Positions 6,779 to 58,163 of a DNA stretch of 64,000 nucleotides are shown in pieces. The notes under the pieces were generated by a model that was not told the DNA's origin, did not search any database, and saw only the letters and a program-made list of their open reading frames with translations. The stretch is from positions 1-64,000 of the forward strand of contig NZ_FOJM01000005.1 in assembly GCF_900111825.1 (NCBI RefSeq). Direction: 5' to 3'. The DNA comes from Pedobacter suwonensis (lineage in GTDB: Bacteria > Bacteroidota > Bacteroidia > Sphingobacteriales > Sphingobacteriaceae). Numbering within the stretch: position 1 is the stretch's first letter; each line of letters begins with the position of its first letter. The translations under genes were made by a program, and so were the position numbers.

Positions 6779-7139
6779 GGCTAAAAGTAAAGTTTTATTG
6801 GGAAGGGACAAAATTGGGTTAGCGTTTGGTTGCCACGGAAACACTGATTAACACGGAAGTTTTTTGATGCGTCGGTAGAGGGATTTTATCGTGGTGTCAG
6901 ATATTACTATCTGACACAAGCTTATTTTCAGTCTGCACATAAATTCTATTTCTAAGAATTTACTTAAGGTCAGATGGTAACATCTGACTGCACATTAATA
7001 GGTTGCAGATGCTTCGTGCCTCAGCATGACAGAAAAAACGCTCTCCGTGGTTTTGTGCTTCCGTGGCAAAAAATAAAAAAGAAAGCCGTCCCGATTTTAC
7101 ATCAGAACGGCGTATATCTAAATAAATCTGTGTTTAAAA
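6779..7139. repeat. Intergenic spacer with two short palindromes and a CCACGGAAACAC element
   Basis: Contains GCCACGGAAACACTGATTA (from about 6832), a perfect 10-bp inverted repeat at 6894-6917 (GTGTCAGATA and its complement around TTAC), and an 8-bp one at 6969-6988 (GTCAGATG around GTAA). These are the same short elements that crowd 16260-17325. A terminator for the ABC-F gene lies at 7069-7111. Confidence 0.75.
7069..7111 (-). terminator. Intrinsic terminator of the ABC-F gene
   Basis: Read on the minus strand, GCCGTTCTGAT and ATCGGGACGGC pair (two G-U pairs) around a GTAAA loop, followed by a T-rich run. It starts about 30 bp after the ABC-F stop codon. Confidence 0.75.
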
Positions 7140-15656: not shown

Positions 15657-16223
15657 TTAATCAAAAAGCGTTAAAGTTTTAGGTTTTGTATCGGGATCTT
15701 TAAAAGGCAATTCTTTAAAGGGTTGCCATCTTTTATCCACGTGCTTATAAACAGAAAAAGATGAAACCTCAAATTCCCGTTTAAATTTGCGGTCTTTAAA
15801 TTCCGCGCAGATCTGTTTGAAAACGGGTTTTATGTCCCTGAATGCCAAAGTTAAATGTGGATTGAATTTTTCTTTTTTCCCGATCAGTTTTAAAGGTTGT
15901 AAGGTTTTGGTTATCTGTTTTTCCAGCAACATCAATCCTTCGTTTTGTTCAACATCTAGGTAAAAGGTATGTTCGGGGAAGGAGTTAAAATTTCGGAGTA
16001 CCTGTGTAAATGGCTGATTAAAGGAGGCATCTGTCAGCGCTTTGAAAAAACGCTCTTCTGCATCATATCCTGAAAGTTTTACCGGAGGATATAAAGTAAT
16101 GTGTGGCGGACGCTTTAATGATTCACGCACATTAAATTTATCTGCAATGTAGGTCCTAATCTCGTCGATATCTTCTGCAATAGAAACAGGAGGAACTAGG
16201 CATATCAAAAAAAGATTTTCCAT
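15657..16223 (-). CDS. 2'-5' RNA ligase/2H phosphoesterase family protein
   Basis: 188 residues. The two HxT motifs that define 2H phosphoesterases are present: PPHITLYPP (His41) and NPHLTLAF (His123), spaced about 80 residues as usual. These proteins hydrolyse or form cyclic or 2'-5' phosphodiester bonds in RNA or nucleotides. Its TAA stop directly abuts the TAA of the convergent BamA-like gene, leaving no spacer. Upstream lies the repeat-dense block 16224-17327. Substrate unknown. Confidence 0.88.
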   Translation of the reverse strand: MENLFLICLVPPVSIAEDIDEIRTYIADKFNVRESLKRPPHITLYPPVKLSGYDAEERFFKALTDASFNQPFTQVLRNFNSFPEHTFYLDVEQNEGLMLLEKQITKTLQPLKLIGKKEKFNPHLTLAFRDIKPVFKQICAEFKDRKFKREFEVSSFSVYKHVDKRWQPFKELPFKDPDTKPKTLTLFD

Positions 16224-16302
16224 AAAGCAAATTTACTAAAAATTTTAGTAAAAATTGGATGGTTTTATGAAATGTTTATTGGCGCTTAAAATAACCAATT
16301 CC

Positions 16303-16326
16303 GTGGTCTGTGTCCTCACAGATTAC
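16303..16326. repeat. GGTCTGTG-type hairpin (member 1)
   Basis: GTGGTCTGTG pairs with CACAGATTAC (two G-U pairs) around a 4-base loop. First of four related hairpins in this block. Confidence 0.65.
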
Positions 16327-16411
16327 TTAAGTTTTTAGCCGCGGAAACACGGATTGGCACGGAGAAATTCGATAGCATAACAAACTCAAGTTTAATAAAC
16401 CAGACCGACAG

Positions 16412-16463
16412 CGTTACCCCGATTTTATTGGAATTTAATTATAGAACATTTATCGGGGTTAAG
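16412..16463. repeat. Copy A long-range stem CCCCGAT/ATCGGGG
   Basis: GTTACCCCGAT on the left and ATCGGGGTTAAGC on the right, enclosing about 30 A/T-rich bases. The equivalent stem in copy B has a G-C pair where this one has A-T. Confidence 0.6.
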
Positions 16464-16630
16464 CAAAGGGCGGGGCTAGCGAAAACGAAGTGTCACAGGT
16501 ATTGCTGTTCTATAAAAGATGGAGATTGTATTAGACCTTTTGTAATAAGCAATGAAGTTAATCGTTAAAAGCGATTTGCTATTTTCACACTCGTTGGAAA
16601 CGAGCGTGAGCATGAATTTTTATTACTACC

Positions 16631-16654
16631 ATGGTTCTTGTCTTCACGAACCAT
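16631..16654. repeat. GGTTCTTG-type hairpin (member 2)
   Basis: ATGGTTCTTG and CACGAACCAT pair at 9 of 10 positions around a 4-base loop. Compared with members 1 and 3, the stem base changes are compensated on the other arm (GTTC with GAAC). Confidence 0.65.
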
Positions 16655-16730
16655 CTTATTTTGAAATAACTGACCTTGATTTACAACCTAATTGAATGCC
16701 CAACTTTTTTACTAGCTAATTGCTGCTTTT

Positions 16731-16800
16731 TGTGTCAGATGGTAACATCAGACACCACGAATATTGCTTTTGTGTCAGTTGGAACAATCTGACGCCACAA
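16731..16800. repeat. Two tandem TGTCAG palindromes
   Basis: 16731-16759 reads TGTGTCAGATGGTAACATC then AGACACCACGA; 16771-16800 reads TGTGTCAGTTGGAACAATC then TGACGCCACAA. Each is an imperfect hairpin followed by the same CCAC tail. The family also occurs at 6894, 6969, 17155 and 17294. Confidence 0.75.
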
Positions 16801-16868
16801 ATGATTTTTGCCACGGAAACACGGATTAGCACGGAGAAATTTTTATATCAATGGTTTGGTCCCATTCC

Positions 16869-16890
16869 ATGGTTTGTGTCTGCACAAACC
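16869..16890. repeat. GGTTTGTG hairpin (member 3)
   Basis: Perfect 8-bp stem GGTTTGTG (16871-16878) and CACAAACC (16883-16890) with loop TCTG, followed by a short T run. Confidence 0.65.
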
Positions 16891-16935
16891 CTTTTTATTT
16901 CGTTAACTGACCCGTGTTAACTAAACCCGACCGGC

Positions 16936-16992
16936 AGCGTTACCCCGGTTTAAGCGGAATTTAATTTATCCAAGATTTACCGGGGTTAAGCA
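16936..16992. repeat. Copy B long-range stem ACCCCGGT/ACCGGGGT
   Basis: GTTACCCCGGT and ACCGGGGTTAAGC enclose about 30 bases. It corresponds to 16412-16463 with a compensated base-pair change. Confidence 0.6.
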
Positions 16993-17154
16993 AAGGGCGG
17001 GGCTAGCGGAACCGAAGCACCATAGGTACTGCTTTTCTAAAAAAAATAGAAACTTTCGTAATAAACAATAATGTTAATCGTTAAAAGCGATTTGCTATTT
17101 TCACACTCGTTAAAAGGAGCATGAGCATGAGTTTGTGATGATTATAACTGTTTT

Positions 17155-17184
17155 TGTGTCAGTTGGTAACAACTGACACCACAA
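17155..17184. repeat. TGTCAG palindrome, perfect stem
   Basis: TGTCAGTT pairs with AACTGACA around GGTAAC, then ACCACAA. Against the TGTCAGAT/ATCTGACA copies, the changed base is compensated on the other arm. Confidence 0.75.
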
Positions 17185-17206
17185 ATAAAAACTAAAGTCT
17201 AATGCT

Positions 17207-17230
17207 GTGGTCTGTATGCTCACAGATCAC
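17207..17230. repeat. GGTCTGT-type hairpin (member 4)
   Basis: GTGGTCTGT pairs with ACAGATCAC (one G-U pair) around a short loop. Confidence 0.6.
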
Positions 17231-17327
17231 TATTCAATAGATTTTTACCGGAAGGTAATCTCTTTTTGAGCTTGTGATGGTTATAGCTGTTTTTGCGCCA
17301 GATGGAAACATCAGCCACCACAGATCG

Positions 17328-17858
17328 TCAGACCAGATTCTTCAAGCCGTCAAAAATACTTTCGAAAAAAGTAGAAAGATTTAATCCGTTACTATGGTTG
17401 AAATATACAAATACCAGGAGCACGATTATCACAAATATGATAAGTTTACGGAAGGCGAAAGCGATGATAATCAGTGCGATAGGGATGATGAATAACCATA
17501 AACTGTTGATGGTGTAAGGACTTAAATCGGTATCTTTTTTATAAACATACACGAGTTTGCTATGTGTACCGGCGTCGTTTTGGTGTTTGATATAAACAAA
17601 AGTAGATTTATCGATCGGTAAAGGCAGCACCGCTATGCCATCATTAAATTTTAATACCTGGGTAAAGCCACTTACACTAAAGGTATAGGTTCCGTTAATG
17701 CTCTCGTTGGGGTTGTTCAAAGAATCGGCTGCTATGATGGCCAGTTTACTGTTTTTTAGCAAATTCTCTTTTACCAGGAAATTATTGATTGATGCGTTTT
17801 GTGCAAAGCCGAAAAGGCCGTTTATACACAGCAAAAACAAGAGTACGATTCGTTTCAT
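17328..17858 (-). CDS. Small exported membrane protein of unknown function
   Basis: 176 residues, not recognised. Residues 1-20 are a signal peptide ending FGFAQ. A beta-rich domain follows (GTYTFSVSGFTQVLKFNDG), then two adjacent hydrophobic segments near the C-terminus (SLWLFIIPIALIIIAFAF and LIIFVIIVLLVFVYF) and a short tail. Its start codon overlaps the stop of the patatin gene by 4 bp (17855-17858), so the two are probably translationally coupled and may act together at the envelope. Confidence 0.75.
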   Translation of the reverse strand: MKRIVLLFLLCINGLFGFAQNASINNFLVKENLLKNSKLAIIAADSLNNPNESINGTYTFSVSGFTQVLKFNDGIAVLPLPIDKSTFVYIKHQNDAGTHSKLVYVYKKDTDLSPYTINSLWLFIIPIALIIIAFAFRKLIIFVIIVLLVFVYFNHSNGLNLSTFFESIFDGLKNLV

Positions 17859-42265: not shown

Positions 42266-42511
42266 ATTTTTTGTTTTATTTTTTAGAAAGCAGTTACAGT
42301 AATGCTTCGGTTTTGATAGTCCTGCTATCCGTTAAATTTCGTTAATGTTCGTGCTAAATTAAGGTTTAGTAAAGCGAAATACCACTACTATCAGGTTTAT
42401 TTTATGCGGGTTTGTGGGTTTTAGGCAAAAATAGCCGGGTACCTTCTAAAATGCTGCTTTATTCATATGATCGAAGGAGCCAAATAGTAACATCTAACGC
42501 CACAAACAGGC

Positions 42512-57981: not shown

Positions 57982-58163
57982 AATTTAATAATTAACATTC
58001 TTTTTTTATAGGTTTGAAAATGAAAGTCAGTTTTTCATCGCGCCTGTAGTCCCGTTATCGCTTATAGTCCTCGCTACGCTGCGGGCTATTCCGCTCTATC
58101 GGGTTTATTTAACAGCGGATGGGCGTTACCCTCCGCCTTAAACCTTTCAGCCTTCCACTTCTC
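57982..58163. repeat. Repeat insertion between hisB and hisH
   Basis: 182-bp gap in an otherwise tight operon. It includes TCGCTACGCTGCGGGCTA and GATGGGCGTTACCCTCCGCC, with a GGGCGTTACCC hairpin. GCGTTACCC also occurs in the two core units of 16224-17327. It looks like an intra-operon repeat that is transcribed. Confidence 0.55.

Follow-up and report, generated by a model that had tools for sequence, protein, structure and literature searches.

The stretch of DNA analysed here, 64,000 nucleotides of Pedobacter suwonensis (contig NZ_FOJM01000005.1) and referred to below as the window, carries a gene-free block at positions 16224-17327. As described in an initial annotation of this DNA, the block is placed between a 2H phosphoesterase-like gene and the gene of a small membrane protein. 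The open reading frames offer no convincing gene inside the block, which again agrees with that annotation. Repeat analysis of positions 16000-17500, along with BLAST against the organism's own genome (5.8 Mb, 40 contigs), resolves it into a mosaic of five repeat families, here called A, B, C, D and R. D, of about 130 nt, is present twice and is followed each time by R, while B is present four times, C three times with one more copy recognised by eye, and A twice.

15657-16223, minus strand: flanking gene, 2H phosphoesterase-like (best NCBIfam match TIGR02258, 45 bits, below the cut-off of 65.7)
16297-16327, no strand assigned: C hairpin REP copy 1, CCGTGGTCTGTGTCCTCACAGA (repeat analysis)
16333-16369, plus strand: A repeat copy 1, TTTTAGCCGCGGAAACACGGATTGGCACGGAGAAATT (repeat analysis, block BLAST)
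16392-16523, plus strand: D element copy 1, a Flavo-1-type structured repeat (model span 16395-16514)
16557-16616, plus strand: R two-hairpin REP copy 1, ATCGTTAAAAGCGAT and CACTCGTT..AACGAG (repeat analysis, BLAST; ends by eye)
16629-16655, no strand assigned: C-like hairpin, CCATGGTTCTTGTCTTCACGAACCATC (by eye)
16732-16758, no strand assigned: B hairpin REP copy 1, GTGTCAGATGGTAACATCAGACAC (repeat analysis; ends by eye)
16772-16798, no strand assigned: B hairpin REP copy 2 (repeat analysis; ends by eye)
16805-16841, plus strand: A repeat copy 2 (repeat analysis, block BLAST)
16863-16893, no strand assigned: C hairpin REP copy (repeat analysis)
16918-17050, plus strand: D element copy 2 (model span 16921-17041)
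17073-17131, plus strand: R two-hairpin REP copy 2 (repeat analysis, BLAST; ends by eye)
17156-17182, no strand assigned: B hairpin REP copy 3 (repeat analysis, block BLAST; ends by eye)
17201-17231, no strand assigned: C hairpin REP copy (repeat analysis)
17295-17322, no strand assigned: B hairpin REP copy 4, degenerate (repeat analysis, block BLAST; ends by eye)
17328-17858, minus strand: flanking gene, small membrane protein without an NCBIfam match, used as synteny anchor

The two copies and their parts

The initial annotation had described two diverged copies, with cores at about 16402-16625 and 16926-17135, and this observation is confirmed. The block holds two copies of a composite unit that are 81% alike. 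When core 1 was compared with the own genome, 12 matches including itself were obtained; core 2 was found at E=1e-52 (81%), so their likeness is not due to chance, and the rest were shorter and dispersed. For the whole block, there were at least 58 matches among the best 40 of 117 candidates. The alignment of the two cores is piecewise, at 79-93% (direct-repeat families), and each core is better split into a D element and a separate R behind it. The 59-nt piece at 93% contains the identical GTTAATCGTTAAAAGCG... stretch of both cores. An identical stretch of about 40 bp had been pointed out earlier; it is indeed present and belongs to R, a separate REP after D.

The paired change from CCCCGAT/ATCGGGG to CCCCGGT/ACCGGGG is a real two-sided change of one pair (A-T to G-C). 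It had been assigned to an outer stem, but it is located in the inner, apical stem, and D possesses outer helices beyond it. The two further families of short hairpins recognised in the initial annotation correspond to B and C, to which the dispersed repeat A has to be added.

R was found within 300 nt of D only at the two copies in the window and at none of the 8 other D copies found. A tree of the D copies has little support; in it, the window copies are about as distant from each other as from the D of other species, and therefore the duplication is either old or a mosaic. A and B adjoin again at window positions 6830-6919, as they do in the block, and the same neighbourhood recurs at C29:100512-100622; A may thus be part of a composite with B.

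The D element and its kinship with Flavo-1

In the own genome, D is present by pattern at ten places, two of them degenerate, in the loci found by core and whole-block BLAST. Its fold consists of a 3-4 bp stem, a 2 bp stem and a GC step, with small internal loops between them, and an apical stem with a variable loop. The 3' tail ends near TTGCTTTYCWAAA. Rfam gives no match over the block, either at gathering scores or at E<=1, and D copies from seven loci stay unmatched even at E<=10. In the own genome, the best 150 of 1241 candidates gave 82 Flavo-1 matches at E<=10, of which 37 exceed the gathering score; the ten D places are all absent from them, and no D copy reaches the gathering score of RF01705.

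Nevertheless, a covariance model built from D alone finds Flavo-1, whereas the Rfam profile fails to find D. This model, R1, was built from 13 D sequences (9 from the own genome and 4 from relatives), and it matches Flavo-1 elements; at E<=0.5 it gives 57 places, spread over 41 sources, of which the last two match only in part and in antisense. D shares with Flavo-1 (RF01705; Weinberg et al. 2010, PMC2864571) the order of short helices and loops seen in its alignment, the small internal loops and the variable apical hairpin. By eye, the 3' tails are similar as well, including that of a sub-threshold Flavo-1 match (L012, 27.2 bits), but the internal loops are unlike those of D. Hence, D is an unrecognised relative of Flavo-1 that has, in this genome, the look of DNA-level repeat material. 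In the open-access literature covered (titles, abstract openings and passages), no study describes Flavo-1 as mobile DNA or likens it to REPs.

A joint model, R2, was built from 65 matches (alignment A5, in which one row, L005:1553-1610, is spurious). At E<=0.001 it yields at least 143 matches in the own genome; these come from the best 150 of 3041 first-look candidates, so the true number is probably larger. Two more elements of the same superfamily are present in the window itself.

42281-42400, minus strand: another element of the same superfamily (R1 72.2 bits; Rfam Flavo-1 40.3 bits, below the cut-off of 42)
58012-58108, minus strand: another element of the same superfamily, the fourth Flavo-1-type element in the window (R2 44.7 bits)

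The arrangement of these elements was studied at 49 fully scanned places with 92 R2 matches: three in the window, seven D loci and 39 Flavo-1 loci (of 40 retrieved). Neighbours at most 450 nt apart form 41 pairs, of which 34 are inverted (24 head-to-head and 10 tail-to-tail) and 7 are direct, with a binomial p of 2.5e-5 that treats pairs within an array as independent though they are not. The head-to-head gaps measure 31-85 nt, and alternating arrays such as minus-plus-minus-plus recur. Genome-wide, among the best 150 candidates, inverted neighbours make up 29 of 52 at distances up to 450 nt (p=0.49); this list misses weak partners, and the spacing of many of its same-strand pairs is what a missed weak partner between them would leave. 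At gaps of up to 100 nt, 26 of 28 are inverted. The two D copies of the window have the same orientation. The elements are mainly intergenic: 8 of 78 matches (out of the 92) overlap mechanically called open reading frames, against 51.7 expected.

MITEs are short, non-coding and dispersed elements with paired inverted halves. D/Flavo-1 resembles them in all these respects, but no parent transposon and no target duplication was found for D, the empty sites being too diverged for reading by eye. A parallel may also be drawn with REPs, REPINs and BIMEs (PMC6006769, PMC3116915). The inverted pairs and alternating arrays of D/Flavo-1 are the likeness; the differences are the larger size (matches of about 80-170 nt per half), the several helices and the fact that no cognate REP-associated tyrosine transposase (RAYT) was found.

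Transposases and the history of the site

The initial annotation had suggested looking for a REP-type tyrosine transposase elsewhere in the genome, and such genes are present. The own genome has 8 Y1_Tnp matches, 7 of them above the cut-off. The NCBIfam model NF047646 for RAYTs is over its cut-off in 5 of the 7 proteins tested (a near-duplicate at L015 was left out); the protein on C23 is just below it (78.3 against 80), and that at C15:192318 is of the IS200 type. R-like double hairpins surround the RAYT gene at C35:164732-164983, B copies lie on both sides of that at C33:175802-176038, and inverted C-like copies surround that at C23:248036-248185; the C of the block has GGTCTGTGTCCTCACAGA, 18 identical bases, in common with a copy beside the C23 gene. 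Thus, three families of the block have a RAYT in the genome. B, C and R are short, imperfect and multicopy palindromes, with copies on the flanks of a RAYT gene in their own genome, and in this they are like known REPs. B is known from about 30 places in the own genome, while R and C have a few matches each, which are lower bounds (best 40 of 117 candidates). The conserved tetranucleotide tag expected at one end of such REPs falls into GTAG and CGTC classes (PMC3733652). For A, no transposase was found in the own genome.

Two tandem RAYT genes at L014:1410-2393 (C15:106489-107382), about 97% identical over 300 nt and 684 nt apart, have a hairpin family of their own, GGTCCGGATT..AATCCGGACC. The RAYT genes at L014 and L016-L020 differ in the repeat families of their flanks; by a reading of these flanks, there are six RAYT/REP systems in one genome.

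It may be asked whether D/Flavo-1, too, is a REP family that a RAYT mobilises in trans. A candidate would be the Bacteroidetes TnpA-REP subclass 2.6, which is bordered by atypical secondary structures that recur at other places (PMC6006769). The REPIN-like pairs speak for such a relation. So does co-occurrence: among 60 same-genus genomes, 35 have both D-type matches and Y1_Tnp, 2 have D only, 3 Y1 only and 20 neither, but this association is confounded by descent. Among 236 genomes of the same class, Flavo-1 is present in 67 (19 candidates scored in each) and Y1_Tnp in 168; 57 have both, 10 Flavo-1 only, 111 Y1 only and 58 neither (odds ratio 3, p=0.004). In addition, about 1.4 kb and one other gene (accA-like, as judged by eye) separate the C35 RAYT gene from a Flavo-1-type array at C35:162629-163233.

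Against this, no transposase tied to D was found when the own Y1 genes and the loci of relatives were scanned. None of the 8 own Y1 genes has a D/Flavo-1 element within 1.5 kb of either end (L015 being left out of the repeat scan with R2). The 29 best-scoring Y1 loci of relatives, which are mostly of the IS200 type and cover a minority of the RAYTs of these relatives, gave one element, about 1.2 kb from a Y1 gene. D was accordingly rejected as the REP of a RAYT for want of adjacency in the loci scanned. Furthermore, in the ten Flavo-1-positive genomes that have no Y1 match, a RAYT is over the cut-off in none and weakly matched in four. Three genomes (G208, G027 and G262) have 18, 18 and 19 Flavo-1 matches out of 19 scored, with no Y1 or RAYT match; a strict dependence of Flavo-1 on RAYTs is not borne out, as Flavo-1-rich genomes of this kind exist. 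The three are good places to seek the mobiliser of Flavo-1. Mobilisation of D/Flavo-1 by a RAYT is, on the whole, unlikely, though a chance of it worth reckoning with is left.

The site was also followed among relatives. Relatives of the 2H protein are present in 10 of 31 genomes, and the R1 scan of the 60 same-genus genomes (up to the 59 best candidates scored in each) gave matches at E<=1e-4 in 37. From these, 13 genomes that have both flanking genes were compared. In 11 of them D is present in the same orientation, four having it twice, a share that is biased because 6 of the 11 entered the comparison through their own D match; the other two have spacers of 44 and 58 nt. An inverted Flavo-1-type partner of D, here called E, is recognisable in 7 of the 11. 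A search with only the membrane protein gave 66 loci; R2 matches, 41 in total, are present in 26 of them, and the D-E head-to-head pairs at such loci are often exactly 32 nt apart.

In the protein tree, 17 of the 18 rows of one clade (97 SH-aLRT), which includes the window, carry D; the P. borealis record, one of the 17, ends before the 2H gene. The sole exception, P. rhizosphaerae, has a different neighbour gene. The nearest rows to the window are Pedobacter of the P. terrae group. A sister trio (P. soli, P. kyungheensis and P. ghigonis) has 156-159 nt at the site, with B-like and R-like hairpins by eye and no R2 match. Three more distant relatives in which the neighbour genes are unchanged (P. 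rhodius, P. paludis and P. mendelii) have a site of 46-55 nt; in most of the remaining rows the neighbour gene is another one. The tree requires occupancy to have changed at least 7 times. In a P. agri-like group, it is a different Flavo-1-type element that lies directly against the membrane-protein stop codon. Five related Pedobacter genomes (L216, L217, L221, L223 and L268) have a Flavo-1-type element that starts only a few bases from this codon, and so do L210 and L214.

The retention of D in 17 of 18 rows would also fit a useful, conserved function, and it counts against the reading of D as a mobile repeat. D would most simply have arrived once at this locus, by a past transposition in the ancestor of the 18-row Pedobacter clade. 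Several relatives still have the inverted partner E next to it; the lineage of the window lacks E and has two copies of D with R.

Folding as DNA or as RNA

Folding of the whole copies as RNA gives z values of -0.63 and -1.74, which are not exceptional; therefore, the evidence for structure is covariation and not free energy. Among the cells of the 13 D sequences, 93.3% are paired as the structure requires; two-sided cells number 9 against 3.1 after shuffling, while the 3 pairs with a two-sided change are not exceptional (79 of 500 shuffles). The search of the genome and of relatives with a covariance model, as proposed in the initial annotation, brought further copies, and the signal in them is strong. 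In A5, two-sided changes affect 15 of the 16 pairs and 220 cells, against 59 cells after shuffling, and the covariation score is 0.478, against 0.139 shuffled and at most 0.117 for slid controls. Both A5 and a further alignment, A6, were fitted to a model, and A5 leans towards it.

Covariation of this kind is what a structured non-coding RNA, either a trans-acting sRNA or a cis element, would also leave, and the block would then hold two paralogous RNA genes. The retention of D throughout nearly the whole clade (17 of 18 rows) and the Rfam type of Flavo-1, 'Gene; sRNA', go in the same direction. A comparison of G-T pairs with A-C mismatches is a simple test that separates structure at the DNA level from structure at the RNA level. 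Among 364 cells of 52 distinct Rfam-defined Flavo-1 hits, read at fixed offsets, 350 are Watson-Crick, 4 are G-T and 10 are other (6 A-C). Alignment A3 has 4 G-T and 5 A-C in 208 cells, A5 has 10 and 22 in 874, and A6 has 8 and 10 in 640. The B REP hairpins with no fewer than 5 of 8 Watson-Crick pairs (31 of 43) have 2 G-T and 8 A-C in 248 cells. By comparison, the tRNAs of this genome (22 distinct ones, from 30 of 47 matches) have 38 G-T and no A-C in 474 cells, the zero being less telling than the 38 since ARAGORN may bracket only pairs that are able to form.

Thus, G-T is not commoner than A-C on the listed strand and is rarer than in the tRNAs; if the opposite strand is considered, the A-C cells of A5 amount to 2.5% wobble, below the 8% of the tRNAs. 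Compensatory changes are present, but the G-U intermediates that are expected of a structured RNA are not enriched. An RNA from either strand would be expected to show an excess of G-T on that strand; the listed strand has none and the opposite one stays below the tRNAs, which suggests that the folding of DNA, and not of RNA, was selected in D/Flavo-1. The evidence on D points to DNA, contrary to the sRNA type of Flavo-1 in Rfam. The internal-loop motif GNA is present on both strands in 43 of the 52 Rfam-defined hits, a partly circular count because the Rfam model itself asks for GNA; in the second internal loop it is found in only 18 of 52 on each side. GNA/GNA loops suit DNA. A search for literature on this point, in open-access titles, returned nothing useful.

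The genomic context, too, speaks against an RNA. At 35 places with mechanically called open reading frames, 22 are in tandem, 7 in convergent and 6 in divergent contexts, against 24, 5 and 7 for the window background, so there is no context preference. A single genome with at least 143 matches, and the inverted head-to-head pairs, are likewise at odds with RNA genes. In a Flavobacterium transcriptome study (PMC9723704), the Flavo-1 hits of F. psychrophilum are indistinctly sense or antisense to transcribed regions, with many outside them, although several coincide with 5' transcribed regions. A non-coding RNA pair, which the initial annotation had offered as one of two possibilities, is disfavoured by the scarce wobble, the context and this study, and we regard the RNA reading as improbable. 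A role of the elements as transcription terminators, or in stabilising mRNA 3' ends, is very improbable indeed: their intergenic location and the element abutting the stop codon in the P. agri-like group would suit such a role, but they are not enriched between convergent reading frames (7 against 5 at those 35 places), the D consensus has, by eye, no T-run right after the stem, and the lack of orientation bias rules against it.

The other possibility in the initial annotation, a mobile repeat that needs structure or a non-autonomous element, is supported by the dispersed copies, the covariation, the occupied and empty sites and the RAYTs flanked by three of the families; its interpretation is, in this way, partly supported. 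We consider it likely that the block is a pile-up of mobile hairpin-repeat DNA in which D is a Flavo-1-type half-unit, REPIN/BIME-like and selected as folded DNA. The site would be a gene-free landing place where non-autonomous DNA hairpin repeats accumulate. B, C and R would be REPs served by three different RAYTs encoded elsewhere in the genome, or relics of them. D would be half of a larger Flavo-1-type element, the halves of which often form inverted head-to-head pairs about 30-85 nt apart, and sometimes alternating arrays, as REPINs and BIMEs do; its structure would be selected as folded DNA rather than RNA. A wider proposal is more tentative, and we give it somewhat less than an even chance: that Flavo-1 and D together are a REPIN/BIME-like class of mobile DNA across Bacteroidia, with an enzyme other than a RAYT to move it and with selection acting on the folded single strand of DNA, the sRNA entry in Rfam being a misfiling.

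One kilobase of this genome thus shows the REPs of three RAYTs and a Flavo-1-type element stacked where more distant relatives have about 45-60 nt. Catalogues file Flavo-1 as an sRNA, with no function assigned to it. Should these elements be DNA-level repeats, the Flavo-1 'sRNA genes' annotated in Bacteroidia are not RNA genes, and a common, structured, REPIN-like element is without a known mobiliser.
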